A program made the translations under genes and the position numbers. DNA of 64,000 nucleotides from Pseudomonas graminis (GTDB lineage Bacteria > Pseudomonadota > Gammaproteobacteria > Pseudomonadales > Pseudomonadaceae). Positions within the stretch are counted from its first letter, which is position 1; each line of letters begins with the position of its first letter. The DNA is taken from assembly GCF_013201545.1 (NCBI RefSeq), contig NZ_CP053746.1:4478501-4542500 (forward strand), given 5' to 3'. The notes beneath the pieces are model-generated. The model searched no databases. It had not been told where the DNA came from and worked only from the letters and a program-made list of their open reading frames with translations. Shown here piece after piece: positions 12,447 through 25,109 of this stretch.

Positions 12447-12476
12447 TTGACGTTAACGTAAAGCCCAACTTACGTT
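12447..12476 (+). promoter_or_regulatory. liuR promoter with LiuR-like palindrome
   Basis: TTGACG (12447-12452) can serve as -35 and TACGTT (12471-12476) as -10 with an 18-bp spacer, or ACGTTA with 19 bp, the long-spacer design of MerR-type promoters. The palindrome ACGTTAACGT (12450-12459) overlaps the -35. The same palindrome precedes liuA, so autoregulation by LiuR is inferred. Confidence 0.6.
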
Positions 12477-12506
12477 ACGCCCATGCCTTCTGTATCGAGC
12501 ACTGCC

Positions 12507-12887
12507 ATGACCGCGACCACCTACAGTATTTCCGACCTCGCCCGCGAGCTGGACATCACCACCCGCACCATTCGCTTCTACGAAGAACAAGGCATGCTCA
12601 GCCCCGAACGCCGTGGGCTGGAGCGGGTTTATTCGGGCCGCGACAAGGTCACCCTCAAGCTGATTCTGCGGGGCAAGCGCATCGGCTTTTCCCTGGCGGA
12701 ATGCCGCGACCTCATTGGCCTGTATGACCCCGCCGGCGGGAATCACAGACAACTGAGCACCATGCTGGAGAAAATCGCCGAGCGTCGCGCGCAGTTGGAT
12801 CAGCAACTTCTGGACATTCAGCAGATGCAGCTGGAGCTCGACACGGCAGAGGAACGCTGCAAGGCCGCACTGGAAACATCCAGTTGA
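12507..12887 (+). CDS. liuR: MerR-family regulator LiuR of leucine/isovalerate catabolism
   Basis: A 126-residue protein with a MerR DNA-binding domain at the N-terminus (YSISDLARELDITTRTIRFYEEQG, about residues 6-29) and a C-terminal dimerisation coiled coil (LEKIAERRAQLDQQLLDIQQMQLELD). It heads the liu genes, as in other pseudomonads, where LiuR represses the regulon until a branched acyl-CoA intermediate accumulates. ATG 12507 is chosen because the proposed promoter would place the alternative ATG (12483) at the transcription start. No metal-binding cysteine pair like that of MerR is present, as expected for LiuR. Confidence 0.9.
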   Translation: MTATTYSISDLARELDITTRTIRFYEEQGMLSPERRGLERVYSGRDKVTLKLILRGKRIGFSLAECRDLIGLYDPAGGNHRQLSTMLEKIAERRAQLDQQLLDIQQMQLELDTAEERCKAALETSS

Positions 12888-12941: not shown

Positions 12942-13841
12942 ATGTCTCTCCCTCAACGTGTGCGTCTGGTTGAAGTCGGCCCTCGGGATGGCCTTCAGAA
13001 CGAATCCCACCCAGTCAGCGTCAGCGACAAACTTCAATTGGTTCAGGATTTGACCGACGCTGGCGTGAGCTACATCGAAGCGGGCAGTTTCGTGTCGCCG
13101 AAATGGGTGCCGCAGATGGCCGGCTCCGCTGAACTGTTCGCCGGCATTCAGCGCAAGGACGGCGTGATCTACGCCGCGCTGGCCCCCAACCTGCGCGGGT
13201 TCGAAGACGCGCTGGCCGCCGGCGTGAAGGAAATCGCCGTGTTCGCCGCCGCGTCGGAGTCGTTCTCCCAGCGCAACATCAACTGCTCAATCAGCGAAAG
13301 CCTGGATCGGTTTCTGCCGATCATGGAGGCCGCGCGCCTGCACGGCATCAGCGTTCGCGGCTACGTGTCCTGTGTGCTGGGTTGCCCCTATGAAGGTGAC
13401 ATTGCGCCGAAGCAAGTGGCGGCAGTTGCCAACGAGCTGTTCGCGATGGGCTGCTACGAGGTGTCCCTCGGCGACACCATCGGCACCGGCACGCCGGGCG
13501 CCACCCGCACGCTGTTCGACGTGGTCGCCGGGCAGATTCCGCGCGGCAAACTGGCCGGGCATTTCCACGACACCTATGGTCAGGCGTTGGCCAACATCTA
13601 TGCCAGCCTGCTGGAAGGTATTCAGGTGTTCGACAGTTCCGTGGCCGGCCTCGGCGGCTGCCCTTACGCCAAAGGCGCGACCGGCAATGTGGCCAGTGAG
13701 GACGTGGTTTACCTCCTGCAGGGCCTTGGCATCGAAACCGGTATCGATCTGGACAAGCTCATTACCGCCGGTCAACGCATTAGCGACATCCTCGGTCGAG
13801 CGAACGGCTCGCGGGTGGCAAAGGCACGTTTGTCGGCTTGA
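12942..13841 (+). CDS. liuE: Hydroxymethylglutaryl-CoA lyase
   Basis: A 299-residue TIM-barrel lyase that splits HMG-CoA into acetoacetate and acetyl-CoA, the last step of leucine degradation. Family residues are present: GPRDGLQNE with Arg15/Asp16, metal ligands His207 and His209 (GHFHDTYG), and catalytic Cys240 in GLGGCPYAKGATGN. It follows liuR by 54 nt and is cut off from liuABCD by a 690-bp region holding the CrcY-type sRNA, unlike the liuRABCDE order known in P. aeruginosa. The mvaB name is also used. Confidence 0.95.
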   Translation: MSLPQRVRLVEVGPRDGLQNESHPVSVSDKLQLVQDLTDAGVSYIEAGSFVSPKWVPQMAGSAELFAGIQRKDGVIYAALAPNLRGFEDALAAGVKEIAVFAAASESFSQRNINCSISESLDRFLPIMEAARLHGISVRGYVSCVLGCPYEGDIAPKQVAAVANELFAMGCYEVSLGDTIGTGTPGATRTLFDVVAGQIPRGKLAGHFHDTYGQALANIYASLLEGIQVFDSSVAGLGGCPYAKGATGNVASEDVVYLLQGLGIETGIDLDKLITAGQRISDILGRANGSRVAKARLSA

Positions 13842-13863
13842 TGTGCGACAAGTTGTCACACAA

Positions 13864-13904
13864 TGTTACCCTGCCCGCCATCACGTTCAGGGAAACGGGT
13901 AACA
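13864..13904. promoter_or_regulatory. Candidate CbrB upstream activator site
   Basis: TGTTAC (13864-13869) and GTAACA (13899-13904) form an inverted repeat with a 29-bp spacer about 85-125 bp upstream of the sigma-54 promoter of the sRNA gene. CbrB sites described at crcZ/crcY contain TGTTAC/GTAACA half-sites (from memory). The spacing here is not the consensus I recall, so treat it as a candidate. Confidence 0.5.
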
Positions 13905-13987
13905 CGGAAACACCTGGCGACAGATTCGGTCTTGAATCCACGCCGGTGAATTCCGGAAAGCCCCGCGAACCGGGACCTCAGCAAAGT

Positions 13988-14003
13988 TGGCATGGCTTCT
14001 GCT
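13988..14003 (+). promoter_or_regulatory. Sigma-54 (-24/-12) promoter of the CrcY-type sRNA
   Basis: TGGCATGGCTTCTGCT has the invariant GG (13989-13990) and GC (14001-14002) separated by exactly 10 nt, the RpoN promoter rule. It lies immediately upstream of the A-rich sRNA. crcZ and crcY promoters are known to be RpoN/CbrB dependent. Confidence 0.8.
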
Positions 14004-14013
14004 ATGTCTTACG

Positions 14014-14371
14014 TACGACAAAAATAACAAATGCAATAACCCAATAAAAACAAGACGTATCGGCTCTGACACAACAAGAACAACACGGACAGAGACGCAG
14101 CTAACTGATTTTTTTGGAGTGGATCGCTCTACTTGAGGCCTTGGCCTCACGACCGTACTGAGAACAATAAAACTGCGTTCAGGCAGCTACCAGACGAGTC
14201 GGATCGAAAGATCGAAGCGTATCAGCGCTCAAAAAAATACGTTTGCTCTTGGCCCCCTATGGGGTCGCTCAAAAAAAGCAAAAAAGGCTGGCTGCCAAAA
14301 ATAACAACAGGCCACCTAATAATAACAAGAGCATGCAGTTGAAATTGAAGGGGAGCCCAGGCTCCCCTTCG
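14014..14371 (+). ncRNA. crcY: CrcY-type small RNA (Crc/Hfq-sequestering decoy)
   Basis: A roughly 360-nt non-coding stretch starts about 12 nt after the sigma-54 -12 element and ends in a stable hairpin. At least six A-rich AAnAAnAA-type Hfq/Crc motifs are visible: near 14018 (CAAAAATAACAA), 14041 (CCAATAAAAACAAG), 14070 (CACAACAAGAACAACAC), 14161 (AGAACAATAAAA), 14296 (CAAAAATAACAACAG) and 14318 (AATAATAACAAGA). CrcZ/CrcY/CrcX RNAs carry such repeats and titrate Hfq/Crc to lift catabolite repression. In P. putida crcY sits next to the mvaB (HMG-CoA lyase) gene (from memory), as here. Ends are estimated. Confidence 0.85.
14347..14370 (+). terminator. Hairpin at the 3' end of the CrcY-type RNA
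   Basis: An 11-bp inverted repeat (GAAGGGGAGCC/GGCTCCCCTTC) has almost no loop and no strong T-tract (GTGCTATC follows). It most likely marks the RNA 3' end, but termination efficiency is uncertain. Confidence 0.6.
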
Positions 14372-14456
14372 TGCTATCCGGCATTCGTAAACCTCCCCTT
14401 CTACCTATTCCAGCGGCCAGCACCTCGCCCCCGTTGACATCAACCCGACCGCAGGC

Positions 14457-14470
14457 TTACGTTAACGTAA
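14457..14470 (+). promoter_or_regulatory. LiuR-like operator/promoter of liuABCD
   Basis: The perfect 14-bp palindrome TTACGTTAACGTAA lies 58 bp before the liuA ATG. It can act as -35 (TTACGT) with TTTATT (14482-14487) as -10 at 19-bp spacing, or overlap a -10 behind TTGACA (14434-14439) at 18 bp. The core ACGTTAACGT is shared with the liuR promoter, supporting control by LiuR. Confidence 0.75.
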
Positions 14471-14528
14471 AGGTGACACCGTTTATTCCCTCCTGACAGC
14501 CCTCCAATAACAACACGGGATGCAGTTC

Positions 14529-15692
14529 ATGAATTACCCCACGCTCAACTTCGGCCTCGGCGAAACCCTCGACATGCTGCGCGACCAGGTGCGCGCCTTC
14601 GTGGCCGCCGAGCTCGCCCCGCGCGCTGCCCAGATCGACAAAGACAATCTCTTTCCCGCCGACATGTGGCGCAAGTTCGGCGACATGGGCCTCCTGGGTA
14701 TTACCGTCGATGAGCAATACGGCGGCGCCGGCCTCGGCTACCTAGCCCACGTCATCGCCATGGAAGAAATCAGCCGGGGCTCTGCCTCCGCGGCGTTGTC
14801 CTACGGCGCCCACTCCAATCTCTGTGTCAACCAGATCAACCGCAACGGCACCCCCGAACAAAAAGCCCGCTACCTGCCCAAGCTGATCAACGGCGAGCAC
14901 GTCGGCGCCCTCGCCATGAGCGAACCCAACGCCGGTTCCGACGTGGTCTCGATGAAGCTGCGCGCAGACCGACGCGGCGACCGTTTCGTGCTCAACGGCA
15001 GCAAAACCTGGATCACTAACGGCCCTGATGCCAACACTTACGTGATCTACGCCAAGACCGACCTGGAAAAAGGCGCCCACGGCATCAGCGCGTTCATCGT
15101 CGAGCGCGATTGGCACGGCTTCTCCCGGGGCAACAAGTTCGACAAGCTCGGCATGCGCGGCTCCAATACCTGCGAGCTGTTCTTCGATGACGTTGAGGTA
15201 CCGGAAGAAAACCTGCTGGGGGCGCTCAACGGTGGCGTGAAGGTGCTGATGAGCGGCCTGGATTACGAGCGCGTCGTGCTCTCGGGCGGGCCGGTCGGGA
15301 TCATGCAGGCGTGCATGGACGTGGTGCTGCCGTACATTCACGACCGCAAACAGTTCGGTCAGAGCATCGGCGAGTTCCAGCTGATCCAGGGCAAGGTCGC
15401 CGATATGTACACCCAGCTCAACGCCAGCCGCGCCTACCTGTACGCCGTGGCCCAGGCCTGCGAGCGCGGCGAGACCACGCGCAAGGACGCCGCCGGGGTG
15501 ATCCTCTACACCGCCGAACGGGCGACCCAGTTCGGCCTGGACACCATCCAGATTCTCGGCGGCAACGGCTACATCAACGAATTCCCGGCCGGACGACTGC
15601 TGCGTGACGCCAAGCTCTACGAGATCGGCGCAGGCACCAGTGAGATCCGCCGCATGCTGATCGGCCGCGAGCTGTTCAACGAAACCCGCTGA
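14529..15692 (+). CDS. liuA: Isovaleryl-CoA dehydrogenase
   Basis: A 387-residue acyl-CoA dehydrogenase that oxidises isovaleryl-CoA to 3-methylcrotonyl-CoA. Typical segments are [43 protein letters not shown], and [14 protein letters not shown], which holds the catalytic Glu of this subfamily; the C-terminus has [22 protein letters not shown] (14529) matches the start of Pseudomonas LiuA and gives its usual length; a longer start (14520) is possible. It is the first gene of liuABCD. Confidence 0.94.
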
Positions 15693-15708: not shown

Positions 15709-17316
15709 ATGACCATTCTGCACACCCGGATCAACCCGCGTTCGCCGGAATTCGCCAGCAACAGTGACGCCATGCGCACGCAACTCGACGCCCTGCACAG
15801 CCTGCTCGACCACGTCCAGCGAGGTGGCGGTGCGAAGGCGCAGGAACGCCACACCTCCCGGGGCAAGCTGCTGCCCCGGGAGCGAATCAATCGCTTGCTC
15901 GACATCGGCTCGCCCTTCCTCGAACTCAGCCAGCTCGCCGCCCATGACGTGTATGGCGAAGACGTCCCGGCCGCCGGGCTGATCGCCGGCATTGGCCGGG
16001 TTGAAGGCGTCGAATGCATGATCATCGCCAACGACGCGACGGTGAAAGGCGGCACGTATTACCCGCTCACGGTGAAAAAACACCTTCGCGCCCAGACCAT
16101 CGCCCAGCAAAACCGCTTGCCGTGCATCTATCTGGTGGACTCCGGTGGCGCCAACTTGCCCCGCCAGGACGAAGTGTTCCCGGACCGCGAACACTTCGGC
16201 AGGATCTTCTTCAATCAGGCCAACCTGAGCGCCGAGGGTATCGCCCAGATCGCCGTGGTCATGGGCTCCTGCACCGCTGGCGGCGCCTATGTGCCGGCCA
16301 TGGCCGACGAAACCATCATGGTCCGCGAGCAGGCGACCATCTTCCTTGCCGGGCCGCCGCTGGTGAAAGCCGCCACAGGCGAAGTGGTGAGCGCCGAAGA
16401 CCTTGGCGGGGCCGATGTGCATTGCAGGGTTTCCGGCGTTGCTGATCACTACGCCGACAGCGATGATCACGCCTTGGCCCTGGCACGACGCTGCGTGGCC
16501 AACCTGAACTGGCGCAAGCTTGGCCAGTTGCAGACCCGCCCGCCCCAGGCACCGCTGTATGCCGATGACGAGCTGTACGGCGTGATCCCGGCAGACGCCA
16601 AGCAGCCGTTCGACGTGCGCGAAGTCATCGCGCGGCTGGTGGACGGTTCGGTGTTCGATGAATTCAAGGCGCTGTTCGGCACCACGCTGGTCTGCGGCTT
16701 CGCCCACCTGCACGGTTACCCGATCGCTATCCTCGCCAACAACGGCATCCTCTTCGCCGAGGCTGCCCAGAAAGGCGCGCACTTCATCGAACTGGCCTGC
16801 CAGCGCGGCATTCCGCTGCTGTTTCTGCAGAACATTACCGGCTTCATGGTTGGCCAGAAGTACGAGGCCGGCGGTATCGCCAAGCACGGCGCCAAGCTGG
16901 TCACCGCCGTGGCTTGTGCGAAAGTCCCCAAGTTCACGGTGATCATCGGCGGCAGCTTCGGCGCAGGTAACTACGGTATGTGCGGCCGCGCCTATGACCC
17001 GCGCTTTCTGTGGATGTGGCCCAACGCGCGGATCGGCGTCATGGGTGGCGAACAGGCGGCCGGTGTGCTGGTGCAGGTCAAGCGCGAGCAAGCTGAACGC
17101 AGCGGCCAGACCTTCAGCGCTGAGGAAGAAGCCGCGCTGCGCCAGCCGATCCTTGATCAATACGAGCATCAGGGCCATCCCTGGTATTCCAGCGCCCGGC
17201 TATGGGACGACGGTGTGATCGACCCCGCCCAGACCCGCGACATTCTCGGCCTGGCCATCAGCGCCTCCCTCAACGCCGCCATCGAACCGACCCGCTTCGG
17301 CGTGTTCCGGATGTGA
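15709..17316 (+). CDS. liuB: Methylcrotonyl-CoA carboxylase carboxyltransferase (beta) subunit
   Basis: A 535-residue carboxyltransferase that transfers CO2 from carboxybiotin on LiuD to 3-methylcrotonyl-CoA. It shows the two crotonase-like halves of acyl-CoA carboxylase beta subunits: the N-terminal half with [19 protein letters not shown] and [14 protein letters not shown], and the C-terminal half with [25 protein letters not shown] and [23 protein letters not shown] lies 9 nt before the ATG. It starts 16 nt after liuA and is clearly co-transcribed. Confidence 0.95.
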
Positions 17317-17333: not shown

Positions 17334-18185
17334 ATGAATGATTTCGCCACCCTCGACATCGCCCTCGACCCACGAGGGTTCGCCACGCTCTGGCTCAACC
17401 GGCCGGAGAAAAACAACGCCTTCAACGCGCAGATGATTCGCGAGCTGATCATTGCTCTGGATCAGCTGCAGAAGGACGACAGCCTGCGTTTTCTGCTGTT
17501 GCGCGGACGCGGCCGACATTTCAGCGCCGGTGCAGACCTCGCCTGGATGCAGGAGTCGGCCAACCTCGATTACAACACCAACCTGGGCGACGCCCGGGAG
17601 TTGGGCGAGTTGATGTACAACCTCGCCAAGTTCAAGGCGCCGACCCTCGCCGTGGTGCAAGGCGCTGCTTATGGCGGCGCACTGGGCCTGATCAGTTGTT
17701 GCGACATGGCCATTGGCGCTGAAGACGCGCAGTTCTGCCTGTCGGAAGTGAAGATCGGCCTCGCCCCGGCGGTGATCAGCCCGTTCGTGGTGCAAGCCAT
17801 CGGCGAACGTCACGCGCGACGCTATGCCCTGACCGCCGAACGCTTCGACGGCACCCGGGCGCGGGAAATCGGCCTGCTGGCTGAGTGTTACCCCGCCGCC
17901 GATCTGGAGCAGCACCTGGAACACTGGATCGTCAACCTGCTGCTCAACAGCCCCCAGGCCATGCGCGTCAGCAAAGACCTGCTGCGTGAAGTTGCCGATG
18001 GTGAGCTGACCCCTGCCCTGCGCCGCTATTGCGAGAACGCCATCGCACGCATTCGCGTCAGCGCCGAAGGCCAGGAAGGTCTGCGGGCGTTTCTGCAAAA
18101 GCGCGAACCGGCCTGGCGCGGCAAACCCGGCACGCTGTCTCAAACACCACAAGACCTGCGTGCCCCACAAGGAGAGTCGCACTGA
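17334..18185 (+). CDS. liuC: Methylglutaconyl-CoA hydratase
   Basis: A 283-residue enoyl-CoA hydratase/isomerase-family protein that hydrates 3-methylglutaconyl-CoA to HMG-CoA. Crotonase oxyanion-hole segments are visible (GRGRHFSAGADLAWM and VQGAAYGGALGLISCCDMAI), along with FCLSEVKIGLAPAVISPFV. ATG 17334 lies 17 nt after the liuB stop. The stop overlaps the liuD start by one base (TGATG), so translation is coupled. Confidence 0.93.
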   Translation: MNDFATLDIALDPRGFATLWLNRPEKNNAFNAQMIRELIIALDQLQKDDSLRFLLLRGRGRHFSAGADLAWMQESANLDYNTNLGDARELGELMYNLAKFKAPTLAVVQGAAYGGALGLISCCDMAIGAEDAQFCLSEVKIGLAPAVISPFVVQAIGERHARRYALTAERFDGTRAREIGLLAECYPAADLEQHLEHWIVNLLLNSPQAMRVSKDLLREVADGELTPALRRYCENAIARIRVSAEGQEGLRAFLQKREPAWRGKPGTLSQTPQDLRAPQGESH

Positions 18186-20161
18186 TGAGCGCCCCCCACA
18201 CACAACCGCTGAATTCGGTGCTGATCGCCAACCGGGGCGAAATCGCCTGCCGGGTCATGCGCACGGCCAAGGCCATGGGCCTGACCACCGTCGCCGTGCA
18301 CAGCGCCACGGACAGCAACGCTCGGCACGTACGCGAGGCCGACGTCGCGGTGAACCTCGGTGGCAGCAAGGCCAGCGAGAGTTACCTGCAAATCGACAAG
18401 CTGATTGCAGCCGCCAAGGCCAGTGGCGCCCAGGCCATCCACCCCGGTTACGGGTTTCTCTCGGAAAACGCAGGCTTTGCCCGCGCTGTCGAGCAGGCAG
18501 GCCTGATCTTCCTCGGCCCGCCCGCCTCGGCCATTGACGCCATGGGCAGCAAATCGGCGGCCAAGTCGCTGATGGAAACCGCTGGCGTGCCGCTGGTGCC
18601 CGGCTATCACGGCGATGCGCAAGACGCCGCAACCTTCCGCGAAGCGTCCGCCCGCATCGGCTACCCGGTACTGCTCAAGGCCACGGCCGGCGGTGGCGGC
18701 AAGGGCATGAAGGTGGTTGAGCGCGACGAGGATCTGGCCGAAGCGCTGGCCTCGGCACAACGTGAGGCGCAGTCGTCGTTCGGCGATTCCCGCATGCTTG
18801 TCGAAAAGTACGTGCTCAAGCCACGCCACGTGGAGATTCAGGTATTCGCTGACCAGCACGGGCACTGCTTGTACCTCAACGAGCGCGACTGCTCGATTCA
18901 GCGCCGTCACCAGAAGGTCGTCGAAGAAGCCCCGGCGCCGGGCCTGACACCACAGATGCGTCAGGCCATGGGCGAAGCGGCGGTGCGTGCGGCTCAGGCG
19001 ATTGGCTACGTCGGTGCCGGCACGGTGGAGTTTCTGCTGGACGCCCGGGGCGATTTCTTCTTCATGGAAATGAACACGCGCCTGCAAGTCGAGCACCCGG
19101 TGACCGAGGCGATTACCGGGCTGGACCTGGTGGCCTGGCAGATTCGGGTGGCCCAGGGCGAGCCGCTGCCGATCACCCAGGCCGAAGTGCCGCTGAACGG
19201 TCACGCGATTGAAGTGCGGTTGTATGCGGAAGACCCGGCCAACGACTTCCTGCCCGCCACCGGGACGCTGGCGCTGTATCGCGAATCGTCGCCGGGGCCG
19301 GGACGCCGCGTTGACAGCGGCGTCGCGGAAGGTGACGAAGTTTCGCCGTTCTACGACCCGATGCTCGGCAAACTGATCGCCTGGGGCGAGACCCGTGAAC
19401 AAGCGCGCTTGCGGCTGCTGGCGATGCTCGACGAATTCGCCATCGGCGGCCTGAGGACCAATCTTGCGTTTCTGCGCCGCATTATCGCGCACCCCGCCTT
19501 CGCCCAAGCCGAGCTGGACACCGGATTTATCCCTCGTTACCAGGAAGATCTGCTGCCAGCGGCAGAGGGCTTGACGGAGGAGTTCTGGCAGCTGGCGGCG
19601 CAGGCGTACCTGAGCACTGCAGCGGTGACGATCAGATCCGACGACGCCCATTCGCCGTGGTCGACCACCCGCGGTCTTCGCCTTGGCGGCCCAAGCGAAG
19701 TGACACTGCACCTGGCGTGTGGTGCAGAGTCCCGAAGCATGGTGATGCGGAGTGACTCGCAGCAAGGCGTTCGTTTGAGCGGCGAGCACTTGCTGATCGA
19801 GCGGGATGGCGTGCGCCGGCAGACCATTGCGATCCGTCGGGCCGGCACGCTTTACCTGCAATGGCAGGGCGATGTGCATGCGATCCGCTCGGTTGACCCG
19901 ATTGCCGAGGTGGATGTGAGCCAAGGTCATCAAGGCGGCCTCACCGCCCCCATGAACGGCAGCATCGTTCGGGTGCTGGTCAGCGTGGGCGAACAGGTGC
20001 AGATCGGCACGCCGCTGGTAGTGCTGGAAGCAATGAAAATGGAACACAGCATCCGCGCGAACGCAGCGGGTACCGTGGCAGCGCTGCATTGTGCCGAAGG
20101 CGAGATGGTCAAGGAAGGGACAGTGCTGGTGGAGCTCGCCGCTGTGGTAGACGGCGAATGA
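18185..20161 (+). CDS. liuD: Methylcrotonyl-CoA carboxylase biotin-containing (alpha) subunit
   Basis: A 658-residue biotin-dependent carboxylase subunit. Order: biotin carboxylase domain (about 10-455; NRGEIACRV, KATAGGGGKGMK ATP-grasp loop, FFMEMNTRLQVEHPVTE), a linker domain, and a C-terminal biotinyl domain with EAMKMEH, in which Lys618 is the biotinylation site. It carboxylates biotin with ATP and bicarbonate for LiuB. Start MSAPHTQPL overlaps the liuC stop by one base. The antisense strand has a long spurious ORF. Confidence 0.95.
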   Translation: MSAPHTQPLNSVLIANRGEIACRVMRTAKAMGLTTVAVHSATDSNARHVREADVAVNLGGSKASESYLQIDKLIAAAKASGAQAIHPGYGFLSENAGFARAVEQAGLIFLGPPASAIDAMGSKSAAKSLMETAGVPLVPGYHGDAQDAATFREASARIGYPVLLKATAGGGGKGMKVVERDEDLAEALASAQREAQSSFGDSRMLVEKYVLKPRHVEIQVFADQHGHCLYLNERDCSIQRRHQKVVEEAPAPGLTPQMRQAMGEAAVRAAQAIGYVGAGTVEFLLDARGDFFFMEMNTRLQVEHPVTEAITGLDLVAWQIRVAQGEPLPITQAEVPLNGHAIEVRLYAEDPANDFLPATGTLALYRESSPGPGRRVDSGVAEGDEVSPFYDPMLGKLIAWGETREQARLRLLAMLDEFAIGGLRTNLAFLRRIIAHPAFAQAELDTGFIPRYQEDLLPAAEGLTEEFWQLAAQAYLSTAAVTIRSDDAHSPWSTTRGLRLGGPSEVTLHLACGAESRSMVMRSDSQQGVRLSGEHLLIERDGVRRQTIAIRRAGTLYLQWQGDVHAIRSVDPIAEVDVSQGHQGGLTAPMNGSIVRVLVSVGEQVQIGTPLVVLEAMKMEHSIRANAAGTVAALHCAEGEMVKEGTVLVELAAVVDGE

Positions 20162-20507: not shown

Positions 20508-23500
20508 TCATGCCGCTACCTCATACAACTTAAGCACTTCAACTTCGCCACTGACCAGGCTCTGGCGCATCCGCGCCGCCTGCAGTGCCGCTGCCTTCAT
20601 GGCGCTTTCCTTGACGTGACCATAACCGCGAATGCGTTCCGGGAGCCGCGCAAGACTCAGTGCCGTGTGCCGGTTGCTCGCGCTCAGGTGGCCGAGGATC
20701 AGCTCGATATCGCCCACGTACGCATCAATCAGCTCGCGCTCCTGGCGTCGCTCGACGCTGCGGCCGAACGGATCGAGCGCGGTGCCGCGCAGGAATTTGA
20801 AACGCGCCAGCACATCGAACGCCTTCAGCATCCACGGCCCGAAGCTGCGTTTGCGCGGCACGCCACTCTTCGGATCACGCTTGGCCAGCCACGACGGTGC
20901 CAGATGAAACTCGATGCGGTAATCCCCTTCAAATTGCGCTTCAAGCTGACGGGTGAAATCGCCGTTGCTGTACAGCCGCGCCACTTCGTACTCGTCCTTA
21001 TAGGCCAGCAGCTTGAAGTAGTTGAACGCCACCGCCTCGGTCAACGCAGGCGGTTGCCCCGGGAACAGCCGTGCCTCGGCGTCCCGCACACGGTTCACCA
21101 GCGTCAGGTAGCGCTCGCTCAGCGCGCCGTTCTGATAAGCGATCAAGGCGTGGACGTTGCGGGTGACACGCTCTTCCAGGGTCAGATGCTCAGGGTCCGG
21201 CGTTGGCTGGCTCTGCGGATTGGCCGCCGCTTGCACCGCAGGGAGGTCAAACGCTGCACGACGCCCCCACAAGAACGCTTGCTGGTTCAGATTGACCGCC
21301 ACGCCGTTAAGCTCGATGGCTTTTTCGATGGCCGCAGAGGTCAACGGAATCAGCCCCAGCTGGAAGGCATAACCCAGCATGAAAAGGTTGCTGGCAATGC
21401 TGTCGCCCATCAATTTGGTCGCCAGGTCCGTCGCCTGCACAAAGTGCGTTTTGTCGGCGCCGACGGCTTCGCGAATGGTCTGCATCATCGCTTCGGCGGG
21501 AAACTCCGCGTCGGGGTTTCGGGTGAACTCAGCGGTCGGCGTCTGCTGGCTGTTGATCACCGCATGGGTTTTTGCGCTGTTGAGCTTGGCGATGGCGTCA
21601 GGGCCTGAGGCCACCAGCAGATCACATCCCAGCAGCAGATGCGCTTCACCGGCCGCGATGCGCACGGCGAACAGATCTTCCTGGCGCGCGGCGATACGAA
21701 TGTGGCTGACCACCGGGCCGAACTTCTGGGCCAGACCGGCCTGGTCGAGCACGCTGCAGCCCTTGCCCTCCAGATTGGCGGCGTAACCCAACATAGCGCC
21801 CACGGTAGTCACGCCCGTCCCGCCCACGCCCGGCAGCAGAATGTTGTACGGCTGCGCGAGGCTCGGCAGGGTCGGCTGCGGCAGTTCGGCGAACGCCTGG
21901 GCCTGTTTCGGCAACTGCGGCTTGCGCAGCTTGCCGCCATGCACCGTGACGAAGCTCGGGCAGAAGCCTTCGACGCAGCTGAAGTCCTTGTTGCACGCGC
22001 TCTGGTCGATTTCGCGCTTGCGCCCTTCGGGGGTTTCCTTCGGCAGCACCGACAGACAGCCCGACTTGACGCCACAATCGCCACAGCCTTCGCACACGGC
22101 CGGGTTGATGATGGCGCGCTTGTCCAGATCCACCATCGTGCCGCGTTTGCGGCGACGGCGTTTTTCCGTGGCGCAGGTCTGGTCGTAGATGATCACCGAC
22201 ACGCCCTTGAACTCGCGCAGCTCGCGCTGCACGGCATCAAGGTCGCTACGGTGGTGGAAAGTAGTAATCGGCGCGAACTGCTCGCGGCTTGGGTATTTCT
22301 CTGGCTCGTCAGACACCAGCGCAATGCGCTGCACGCCTTCGTTGAACACCTGGCGGCTCAGTTGATCCACCCGAAGCACGCCATCGATGGGCTGTCCGCC
22401 GGTCATGGCGACGGCGTCGTTATAGAGAATCTTGTAAGTGATGTTGACCTTGGAGGCGACCGCCGCCCGCAGCGCCAGATGCCCGGAGTGGAAGTAGGTG
22501 CCGTCACCCAGGTTCTGGAACACGTGGGGGGTTTCGGTGAACGGCGCCTGGCCGATCCAGGTCACGCCCTCGCCGCCCATCTGGGTAAACGTCTCGGTTT
22601 CCCGGTCCATCCAGATGGTCATGTAATGGCAGCCGATCCCGGCCAGGGCGCGGCTGCCCTCCGGCACACGGGTCGAGGTGTTGTGCGGGCAGCCTGAGCA
22701 GAAATGCGGGGTGCGCTGGGTGTTGAACAGCGGCGCAGCAAGGGCCTTTTCCTTGTCGGCCAGAAATTGCAGACGCGCGTCGATTTTCGGGCTGCTGTAA
22801 ATCGGCGCAAGGCGCTTGGCGATGACCCGGGCGATCATCGCCGGCGTCAGTTCGGCCAGGTTTGGCAACAGCGAACGGCCTTCTTCATCAAACTCACCGA
22901 CCACACGGGGACGCTGATCCACCGGCCAGTTGTACAGCTGGCCGGTAAGCTGATCCTCAATGACGCTGCGCTTTTCCTCGACCACAAGGATCTCGTCCAG
23001 GCCTTCCGCAAAGCCGTGCACCGACACCGGCTCAAGCGGCCAGCTCATGCCGACCTTAAGCACACGAATGCCCACCGACGCGCAGAGGTCTTCGTCGATG
23101 CCAAGCTCCTCGAGGGCCTGACGCACATCCAGATACGACTTGCCGGTGGTGATGATGCCAAGCCGCGGTTGCGGCGAATCGATGACCACTTTATTGAGGT
23201 TGTTGGCCCGGGCGAACGCGCGGGCGGCGTAGATTTTATAGGTATTGAGGCGCGCCTCCTGGGCGAGGGGCGGATCGGGCCAGCGAATGTGCAGGCCGCC
23301 TTCGGGAATCTGGAAGTCTTCAGGTATCTGCGTCTGGATGCGCAGCGGATCGACCTCAACAACAGCCGAGGAATCGACGTTTTCGGCGATGGTCTTCATG
23401 GCCACCCAGCAACCGCTGTAGCGCGAAAGCTCCCAGCCAATGATGCCGTAATCGAGAATTTCCTGGACGTTGCTGGGGTTGAGCACCGGGATCATCGAGG

Positions 23501-23993
23501 CGATGAAGGCGTGCTCGCTCTGGTGCGCAATGGTCGAGGATTTGCAGCCGTGGTCGTCCCCGGCGAGGATCAGCACCCCGCCCTTTTCGGCGACGCCGGC
23601 CGAGTTGCCGTGCTTGAACACGTCGCCGCAGCGGTCAACGCCCGGACCTTTGCCGTACCACAGGGCGAAGACGCCGTCGTATTTGCCGTGGGGAAACAGG
23701 TTGACTTGCTGACTGCCCCAGACCGCCGTCGCGGCGAGCTCTTCGTTGACGCCTGGCTGGAAATGAATGGCGTTCTGCTGGAGATAATCCTTGGCGTCCC
23801 AGAGGCTCTTGTCGAGGTTGCCCAACGGCGAGCCGCGATAGCCTGAGATAAAGCCGGCGGTGTTGAGCCCGCGGGCTTCGTCGCGCTGCTTCTGCAGCAT
23901 CGGCAGGCGAGTCAGCGCCTGGGTTCCGGTCAGGTACAGATTGCCGGTTGCGAGTCGGTACTTATCGTCCAGACGAATATCAGCCAGGGACAT
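20508..23993 (-). CDS. Indolepyruvate ferredoxin oxidoreductase family protein (fused three-domain 2-oxoacid oxidoreductase)
   Basis: A 1161-residue fusion. The N-terminal IorA-like half binds TPP (FCSGCPHNTSTRVPEGSRALAGIGCHYM, about 450-480; ILYNDAVAMTGGQ). A cysteine-rich ferredoxin-like segment follows (CEGCGDCGVKSGC ... CNKDFSCVEGFC, about 650-700), then an IorB-like gamma domain (GVGGTGVTTVGAMLGYAA). Such fused enzymes decarboxylate aryl or branched 2-oxoacids to acyl-CoA. Position next to the liu operon is compatible with amino acid catabolism, though it is on the opposite strand. AGGAG lies 8 nt before the ATG. Exact substrate is unknown. Confidence 0.9.
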   Translation of the reverse strand: MSLADIRLDDKYRLATGNLYLTGTQALTRLPMLQKQRDEARGLNTAGFISGYRGSPLGNLDKSLWDAKDYLQQNAIHFQPGVNEELAATAVWGSQQVNLFPHGKYDGVFALWYGKGPGVDRCGDVFKHGNSAGVAEKGGVLILAGDDHGCKSSTIAHQSEHAFIASMIPVLNPSNVQEILDYGIIGWELSRYSGCWVAMKTIAENVDSSAVVEVDPLRIQTQIPEDFQIPEGGLHIRWPDPPLAQEARLNTYKIYAARAFARANNLNKVVIDSPQPRLGIITTGKSYLDVRQALEELGIDEDLCASVGIRVLKVGMSWPLEPVSVHGFAEGLDEILVVEEKRSVIEDQLTGQLYNWPVDQRPRVVGEFDEEGRSLLPNLAELTPAMIARVIAKRLAPIYSSPKIDARLQFLADKEKALAAPLFNTQRTPHFCSGCPHNTSTRVPEGSRALAGIGCHYMTIWMDRETETFTQMGGEGVTWIGQAPFTETPHVFQNLGDGTYFHSGHLALRAAVASKVNITYKILYNDAVAMTGGQPIDGVLRVDQLSRQVFNEGVQRIALVSDEPEKYPSREQFAPITTFHHRSDLDAVQRELREFKGVSVIIYDQTCATEKRRRRKRGTMVDLDKRAIINPAVCEGCGDCGVKSGCLSVLPKETPEGRKREIDQSACNKDFSCVEGFCPSFVTVHGGKLRKPQLPKQAQAFAELPQPTLPSLAQPYNILLPGVGGTGVTTVGAMLGYAANLEGKGCSVLDQAGLAQKFGPVVSHIRIAARQEDLFAVRIAAGEAHLLLGCDLLVASGPDAIAKLNSAKTHAVINSQQTPTAEFTRNPDAEFPAEAMMQTIREAVGADKTHFVQATDLATKLMGDSIASNLFMLGYAFQLGLIPLTSAAIEKAIELNGVAVNLNQQAFLWGRRAAFDLPAVQAAANPQSQPTPDPEHLTLEERVTRNVHALIAYQNGALSERYLTLVNRVRDAEARLFPGQPPALTEAVAFNYFKLLAYKDEYEVARLYSNGDFTRQLEAQFEGDYRIEFHLAPSWLAKRDPKSGVPRKRSFGPWMLKAFDVLARFKFLRGTALDPFGRSVERRQERELIDAYVGDIELILGHLSASNRHTALSLARLPERIRGYGHVKESAMKAAALQAARMRQSLVSGEVEVLKLYEVAA

Positions 23994-24747: not shown

Positions 24748-24779
24748 TTGACTCTCAAATGGGAATGATTATTATTGAG
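24748..24779 (+). promoter_or_regulatory. prrF promoter with Fur box
   Basis: TTGACT (24748-24753) serves as -35 and TATTAT/ATTATT (24770-24776) as -10. A Fur-box-like 19-mer, GGGAATGATTATTATTGAG (24761-24779), overlaps the -10 and matches 12 of 19 consensus positions by my count. Iron-loaded Fur would block transcription here. Confidence 0.78.
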
Positions 24780-24782
24780 CGC

Positions 24783-24893
24783 AACCGGTCGCGAGACTGG
24801 TTGGTAACCCAGAAGCCTTAGGTCGGCTTCCGGATTATCTCCTCATCAGGCTAATCACGGTTTTTGACCCGGCTTATAGCCGGGTCTTTTTTT
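24783..24893 (+). ncRNA. prrF: PrrF-type iron-responsive small RNA
   Basis: A roughly 111-nt transcript is predicted from the Fur-controlled promoter to the T-run. It starts like P. aeruginosa PrrF1/2 (AACCGGTCGCGAGA) and contains the characteristic conserved antisense core CGGATTATCTCCTCATCAGG followed by CTAATCACGGTTTTTGACC (24831-24869). PrrF RNAs base-pair near the starts of mRNAs for iron-containing proteins such as sodB and repress them under iron starvation. Only one copy is visible here; many non-aeruginosa pseudomonads carry two at separate loci. Confidence 0.92.
24866..24893 (+). terminator. Terminator of the PrrF sRNA
   Basis: The hairpin GACCCGGCT/AGCCGGGTC is followed by a run of seven or more T (to 24893), a textbook intrinsic terminator and typical Hfq-binding poly-U end. 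Confidence 0.92.
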
Positions 24894-25109
24894 ATGCCCT
24901 TTTCGGGTCTGGGTTCGGTCGGGTGTTGCGTCTTCAGGCTAATGAAGAGGGTTCGACAGTGAACTGTCTTTTCGATGGCGCGCATCATAGCAAATGGATC
25001 GAGCGATGGGCTCTTGCCGCTGTCAAAAATTGACACATTCAGTAAGAACTTCCGAATTCACGACGTTGTTTTCCGCGACCGCCGCTATTCAAACAGTGAG
25101 CAAGACGCC

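Follow-up and report, generated by a model that had tools for sequence, protein, structure and literature searches.

Two questions are raised by the gap between liuE and liuA in Pseudomonas graminis: what is encoded there, and does its placement among the liu genes carry regulatory meaning? The gap spans positions 13842-14528 of the window, that is, the whole stretch of 64,000 nucleotides that was analyzed (positions 4478501-4542500 of a 5.52-Mb, one-contig genome). Upstream of it on the + strand lie a gene for a MerR-family regulator of 126 aa (liuR, 12507-12887, with a listed open reading frame that begins at 12483), which MerR-type models match with scores that are all under their cut-offs, and liuE, also named mvaB, which encodes hydroxymethylglutaryl-CoA lyase (12942-13841; NF004283, 485 bits versus a cut-off of 246). 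Homologs of liuR were recovered by tblastn immediately 5' of mvaB in all 20 loci fetched, including that of the window's genome, and from this context and from published descriptions the gene is presumably LiuR. Downstream, again on the + strand, liuABCD begins with liuA (14529-15692), a gene for an isovaleryl-CoA dehydrogenase-like acyl-CoA dehydrogenase that is named by context, none of the NCBIfam models scoring above its cut-off for this protein; an in-frame ATG at 14520 lies ahead of the conserved start at 14529. It is followed by liuB (15709-17316), liuC (about 17334-18161; gamma-carboxygeranoyl-CoA hydratase model above its cut-off), and liuD (about 18209-20161). Read 5' to 3', the gap between the liuE end at 13841 and the liuA start holds a CbrB-type pair of subsites, a sigma-54 promoter, crcY, a TTGACA element with a palindrome, an A-rich motif, and the liuA ribosome site. 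With near certainty, the product of this gap is CrcY, an Hfq/Crc-sequestering RNA driven by CbrB and sigma-54 that would free repressed mRNAs, including that of liuA.

The identity of the RNA is carried by its family match, its fold, and its place in a tree of family members. The sequence at 14015-14402 (+) matches the Rfam CrcZ model RF01675, which describes the CrcZ/CrcY/CrcX family, over its full length (1-398) with 299.6 bits (E 5.9e-83; gathering cut-off 95 bits), and its fold has a z-score of -4.3. A covariance-model search was the check on which the initial annotation, made from the letters of the DNA, had staked its proposal of a CrcZ/CrcY-type RNA, and the outcome upholds both the RNA gene and its start, proposed at about 14014; the proposed length of about 350 nt gives way to a modelled length of 388 nt. 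The predicted A-rich Hfq/Crc motifs, at least six in number, are also present. Six non-overlapping AAnAAnAA motifs of 8 bases begin at 14020, 14043, 14073, 14163, 14297, and 14318 (+; span 14020-14325), versus a mean of 1.1 in shuffled sequences, none of which (0/1000) reached six. When the + strand of the window was divided into 637 tiles of 388 bases, a single tile held six such motifs and none held more. Relative to the window copy, identity at the fixed A positions of the motifs is 94% among 49 other CrcY copies and 96% among 60 CrcZ copies, compared to 65% and 43% for the free N positions and 68% and 60% for the RNA outside of the motifs; conservation of this kind is as expected for an RNA that would hold Hfq/Crc. 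The sixth motif (14318) is retained in one of the 49 CrcY copies in an alignment that is judged to be shifted at that point. At least two motifs fall within the 100 bases before the terminal hairpin in 50/50 CrcY, 60/60 CrcZ, and 9/10 other copies, and six motifs are present in 54 of the 60 CrcZ copies.

The hairpin that had been noted after the motifs is the stem AAGGGGAGC-CCAG-GCTCCCCTT at 14348-14369 (+), and it is kept in 50/50 CrcY copies, of which 43 have the strict form, one has a stem shorter by a pair, and six have variants. The six variants (L037, L046, L058, L067, L072, and L082, the CrcY copies of G004, G017, G031, G040, G048, and G059, respectively) form a single branch of the tree and have GGGACC/GGTCCC stems (or GGGGACC/GGTCCCC-like stems) in place of GGGAGC/GCTCCC, such that both sides of the stem are altered, as in a compensatory change.

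To place the RNA within its family, 60 genomes (G000-G059) were taken in order from the 199 in which a family member was matched, and all of their 120 copies were included; since these genomes are related, counts from this survey do not represent independent events. Every genome carries one cbrB-linked copy, 50 copies from 49 genomes follow mvaB, and the remaining 10 are located elsewhere. The distance from mvaB to crcY is 152-206 bases, apart from 689 bases for the second copy of a tandem pair in G051. The window's genome has three copies: one located after cbrB and before a poly(A)-polymerase-like gene, which is crcZ, the copy in the window, and a third elsewhere. A quick maximum-likelihood tree of the 120 copies, rooted at its midpoint and containing several long branches, separates CrcZ from CrcY with an SH-aLRT support of 94. 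One side comprises the 60 CrcZ copies linked to cbrB plus a divergent extra copy, and the other comprises the 50 mvaB-linked copies, among them that of the window, together with nine others, some of which are CrcX-like. Because the window RNA groups with mvaB-linked copies and not with cbrB-linked CrcZ, it is CrcY, as had been claimed over CrcZ; its adjacency to mvaB and the CrcY-type spacing of its promoter (see below) agree with this assignment. It clusters with copies from six other genomes, each of which likewise has three copies. Its median identity to other CrcY copies is 67%, and it is 55.5% identical to the crcZ RNA of the same genome. It is extremely improbable that this locus is an A-rich stretch arisen by chance or a CrcY copy that has decayed and lost its function. 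Among CrcY copies, that of the window does have the longest terminal branch (0.7 changes per column), but the model match is full length, the promoter is intact, six motifs are present, and the changes fall mostly outside the fixed motif positions; a chance A-rich stretch is ruled out by the covariance match itself.

Several other copies deserve mention. The third copy of the window's genome (L003/L110; G000:C1:3047584-3047983, - strand) has CrcY-type promoter spacing and clusters with CrcY. This is probably the RNA that is called CrcX in the literature, a name given for P. syringae (PMC6296734, PMC8871633). The candidate shares with CrcY its type of promoter spacing and its side of the tree and differs in its place in the genome, and CrcX may, by these sequence relationships, stem from CrcY. 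In L075 (G051:C1:6292075-6293406), a tandem pair of CrcY copies (6292288-6292664 and 6292825-6293200) lies between mvaB and liuA; the two are mutual nearest neighbors in the tree, and the assembly is listed at 9% contamination. The CrcY of L058 (G031:C41:288085-288382) is just 298 bases long (237.8 bits), and since its match spans the model from end to end, it seems to lack approximately 100 bases of the interior.

The promoter region of crcY points to control by CbrB and sigma-54. The promoter TTGGCATGGCTTCTGCT at 13987-14003 (+) is the sole match of TTGGCAYRNNNNYTGCW in the window, where 0.08 matches were expected from shuffles. An RpoN promoter of the form GG-N10-GC had been placed at 13988-14003; the promoter is there, with each end one base off (GG at 13989-13990, GC at 14001-14002). 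A TGG-N10-GC promoter is found with 50/50 CrcY, 60/60 CrcZ, and 10/10 other copies, and its GC lies 14 bases ahead of the model start in the window copy and likewise in 43 of the 50 CrcY copies. Farther upstream is a CbrB-type pair, TGTTAC-N29-GTAACA (13864-13904, +; subsites 13864-13869 and 13899-13904), which occurs once in the window versus 0.01 expected. Across the genome, TGTTAC-N13-31-GTAACA occurs in three places, each upstream of one CrcZ-family gene. A reversed control pattern is likewise found in three places, so the number of pairs is unremarkable and it is the coincidence of place that speaks. Both TGTTAC and GTAACA are present upstream of 48 of the 50 CrcY copies, at about 124 (or 113) and about 89 bases, respectively, from the promoter GG, whereas in CrcZ the distances are about 125 bases for TGTTAC, about 105 for GTAACA, and about 83 for GTAACG. 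The window copy has the subsite spacing of CrcY rather than that of CrcZ, at a position that is conserved in the CrcY class. It should be noted that in the P. putida crcY promoter, expression was unchanged when R1 or R' was exchanged, whereas the F1 and, to a lesser extent, R2 subsites mattered (PMC6296734), and GTAACA may therefore matter less than its conservation suggests. An ANR site has been reported in the crcY promoter of one strain (PMC12552145); a simple ANR pattern was found with none of the 50 CrcY, 60 CrcZ, or 10 other copies.

The proteins that such a system would involve are encoded in the same genome. Hfq and RpoN score above curated cut-offs, the gene for CbrB precedes crcZ, and a gene for a Crc-like protein, which we take to be Crc, lies beside pyrE. 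The pyrE neighbor of crc agrees with a published description (PMC6292655). By analogy to P. putida and P. aeruginosa, from which it is inferred that CrcY depends on CbrB and RpoN, binds Hfq/Crc, and relieves repression, exhaustion of good carbon sources would lead phosphorylated CbrB to bind at 13864-13904 and to activate sigma-54 transcription from 13987-14003. The CrcY RNA of about 388 nt would then offer its six A-rich motifs to Hfq/Crc, and titration of Hfq/Crc would free repressed mRNAs, the mRNA of the neighboring liuA among them.

As an RNA gene, crcY of the window is an ordinary ortholog of a known global regulator, because the gene, its type of promoter, its mvaB neighbor, and a joint transcript with a LiuR homolog have already been described in P. 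putida. Like the window copy, CrcY of P. putida KT2440 has a sigma-54 promoter, TGTTAC and GTAACA, mvaB upstream, and a LiuR homolog before that (PMC6296734, PMC6292655), and processing of CrcY from a PP3539-mvaB-crcY transcript, in which PP3539 is the LiuR homolog, was reported (PMC6292655). CrcZ of Pseudomonas, located 3' of cbrB, shares with the window RNA the Rfam family, the sigma-54 promoter, and CbrB subsites. The site next to mvaB is not general, since crcY of Azotobacter is described as located elsewhere (PMC6292655). The interest of the window lies in its layout: crcY sits at a break in the liuRABCDE order, it has palindromes on both flanks, and the liuA leader carries a Crc/Hfq motif.

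In P. aeruginosa, the same genes form an unbroken liuRABCDE cluster that is controlled by LiuR, CbrAB, and Crc/Hfq (PMC8871633, section 5.4; PMC6235884), whereas here liuE is beside liuR and is followed by crcY. The proposal that crcY splits the liu genes into liuR-liuE and liuABCD is borne out by the gene order in the window and in the survey, and a comparison of the mvaB-crcY order across pseudomonads, recommended at the outset, recovers liuE-crcY in 49 of 60 genomes. None of these 49 has liuA within 20 kb before liuE on the same strand; the other 11 of the 60 have liuA at a distance of 4.4-6 kb ahead of liuE, the order of liuABCDE. Directly after crcY, liuA is found in 10 of 60 genomes (126 bases separate the model end from liuA in the window). 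In 29 genomes it is 1.7-13 kb downstream, G051 being counted in this class with the distance taken from the first of its two tandem crcY copies, and in 10 it is farther away (more than 20 kb) or on another contig. At the P. putida-named locus L205, no liuA was found within 6.5 kb downstream, in contrast to the window, where liuABCD directly follows crcY. By its liuE protein, the named relatives closest to the window's genome are Pseudomonas. Among the best 80 of the public loci listed by liuE similarity, the 20 with the RNA, all named Pseudomonas, always have the order liuR-liuE-crcY; the other 60 have no crcY in the stretches covered, and where a cluster of theirs is covered in full it runs liuABCDE. 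Among the matches listed for these RNA-less loci, liuR is mostly before liuA and comes after liuE in L227 and L231. Given that genomes and loci that lack crcY show the old order, the broken order looks derived and seems to have arrived with crcY, most simply once.

The liuA mRNA has the features of a Crc/Hfq target. The motif AATAACAA (14506-14513, +) is located right before the ribosome site in the liuA leader, and 29 of 60 genomes (that of the window and 28 of the 59 others) have AAnAAnAA between positions -40 and +3 relative to the liuA start, versus 0.95 expected from shuffles. The letters of the motif differ among genomes (AATAACAA, AACAACAA, AATAATAA) while the frame of A residues is constant; the exact motif is absent in 31 of 60 genomes, many of which have another A-rich stretch there. 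As a contrast, AAnAAnAA occurs in 3 of 20 mvaB leaders. Genes listed as post-transcriptionally repressed by Crc in P. aeruginosa include liuA, liuB, and liuC (PMC6235884). By class, the leader motif is found in 24 of the 49 crcY genomes (0.81 expected) and in 5 of the 11 others (0.14 expected). This last count fits a reading without regulatory meaning, in which chance brought an ancestral duplicate of crcZ into the liu cluster and liuA is one Crc/Hfq target among many; so do the 10 crcY genomes (of 49) whose liuA is over 20 kb distant or belongs to a different contig. Against such a reading, 49 of 60 genomes have preserved liuE-crcY, at a distance of 152-206 bases, while liuA comes and goes. 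On balance, the chances that the placement is without regulatory meaning are about even.

Palindromes of a LiuR type flank crcY. The first, TGACGTTAACGTAA, is located at 12448-12461 (+) in the liuR-liuE promoter, where it is overlapped by a -35-like TTGACG. Across the genome, TKACGTTAACGTMAA occurs in just two places, 12448-12461 before liuR and 14457-14470 before liuA. Before liuA, TTGACA at 14434-14439 and the palindrome TTACGTTAACGTAA at 14457-14470, which lies over the -10 region, form a proposed liuA promoter (14434-14470, +). A scan of 13700-14700 for sigma-70 promoters called no promoter-like site, that of liuA included; the promoter is proposed nonetheless because the spacing of TTGACA and palindrome is conserved and its -10 region is too unlike TATAAT for the scan. 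The exact palindrome is present before liuA in 48 of the 49 crcY genomes, and in 7 of the 11 genomes without crcY it is found 466-513 bases upstream, presumably before liuR. Of these 55 genomes with the exact palindrome, 52 have TTGAC 22-23 bases ahead of it. From the 49 crcY genomes, 20 were picked for spread, and the region upstream of liuR has a similar palindrome in each of them (at least 12 of 14 degenerate positions, a count made with no chance control); its TTGACG also resembles a -35 box, which in most of the 20 is followed by a TAGSTTA-like box. From its position, the palindrome is presumably the operator to which LiuR binds. By this arrangement, crcY would lie between two LiuR-type promoters, that of liuR-liuE before it and that of liuABCD after it. 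The initial annotation had suggested that crcY and the liu operon share an intergenic control zone. The layout is as described, in that the CbrB/sigma-54 promoter of crcY is followed within the gap by the palindrome promoter and Crc/Hfq motif of liuA; the promoters of crcY and liuABCD seem separate. Because the promoters seem separate, the liuA motif is found where crcY is lacking, and adjacency is limited to 10 of 60 genomes, nothing shows that crcY and liuA need to be adjacent.

Transcription of crcY from its sigma-54 promoter could also pass the hairpin into liuABCD, such that CbrB would directly activate leucine breakdown where crcY and liuA are adjacent. The short distance to liuA, 126 bases from the model end, would permit this. 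In the 12-base tail after the hairpin of the window (14368-14379), any 8 bases contain at most 4 T, and a terminator scan called no + strand intrinsic terminator at this hairpin. A T-poor hairpin as the normal end of the family was considered and rejected, since a T-rich tail (at least 5 T in 8 bases) follows the strict hairpin in 27 of 43 CrcY and 44 of 58 CrcZ copies. Among the CrcY copies with the strict hairpin (seven with a different one being omitted), a T-rich tail is found in 2 of 10 liuA-adjacent copies (nine genomes, G051 counted twice) versus 25 of 33 non-adjacent copies. The T-poor tail where liuA adjoins could reflect leakier termination into liuA or kinship: the adjacent genomes are mostly of one lineage, and the difference hinges on 4 versus 5 T. 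In P. aeruginosa, LiuD requires CbrB (PMC8871633), but this effect occurs without crcY in the liu cluster. Moreover, the hairpin is retained in the adjacent genomes, nearly all genomes have a proposed palindrome-bearing promoter in front of liuA, and 39 of the 49 crcY genomes have liuA elsewhere than next to crcY, with an acyl-CoA synthetase gene on the opposite strand in the one intervening stretch that was examined. Since liuA seems to have its own promoter and adjacency is confined to 10 of 60 genomes, read-through is not the leading idea and is judged unlikely.

On the upstream side of crcY, a different form of coupling can be considered. In addition to its own CbrB/sigma-54 promoter, crcY could be transcribed from the LiuR-controlled promoter of liuR, at the 3' end of a liuR-liuE-crcY message. 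Relief of LiuR repression by leucine breakdown products would then yield processed CrcY, titrate Hfq/Crc, and lift the translational block on liuA and other targets, such that the regulator of the pathway would assist in ending catabolite repression. Several observations are consistent with such a leucine feed-forward. First, a LiuR-type palindrome lies over the liuR promoter in all 20 fetched of the 49 liuE-crcY genomes, and the only other exact occurrence in the window's genome is just before liuA. Second, a terminator scan that was limited to loops of at most 10 bases called no intrinsic terminator in any of the 50 mvaB-crcY gaps. Third, processed CrcY was reported from the PP3539-mvaB-crcY transcript of P. 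putida, and expression of crcY independent of CbrB is suspected in P. ogarae (PMC12552145). These points are countered by others. The upstream promoters are called constitutive in P. putida work (PMC6292655), and the palindrome is assigned to LiuR by its position. The absence of a called terminator is weak evidence because 57 of 60 cbrB-crcZ gaps are likewise without one and the scan covers loops of at most 10 bases; in the crcZ gap of the window's genome, a long-loop hairpin before a run of T, beyond the reach of the scan, can be recognized by eye. The authors of the P. ogarae study favor ANR or NarXL rather than LiuR (PMC12552145), and the searchable literature, as distinct from subscription papers, contains no measurement of CrcY on leucine and nothing that connects CrcY levels with control by leucine or LiuR. 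A leucine feed-forward is thus possible but doubtful. A fuller version is a shade more doubtful still, namely that in much of Pseudomonas leucine relieves LiuR repression, that the liuR-liuE-crcY message is cut to CrcY, that Hfq/Crc repression of liuA and other targets is lifted, and that the arrangement arose once from an old crcZ duplicate placed with liuE between liuR and liuA, whereby the ancestral liuRABCDE order was broken.

If such a feed-forward were to operate, a single substrate could override global catabolite repression without CbrAB, and the leucine pathway would make a sponge that frees its own mRNA. Regulators other than CbrB have been suggested to drive CrcY (PMC12552145); the LiuR-type promoter upstream, together with the lack of a recognized terminator before crcY, makes LiuR one candidate. 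The layout makes testable what drives CrcY when CbrB is absent, a question that goes with that of why pseudomonads retain two or three similar sponges.

Two further features lie beyond the liu genes. Directly 3' of liuD, a long gene (1161 aa) of the indolepyruvate ferredoxin oxidoreductase family is encoded on the - strand (20508-23993). At 24748-24894 (+), the window contains a PrrF iron-regulated small RNA (RF00444, 155.2 bits); since the second genomic copy is located at C1:905450-905599, the two PrrF copies of this genome are distant from one another and not in tandem.
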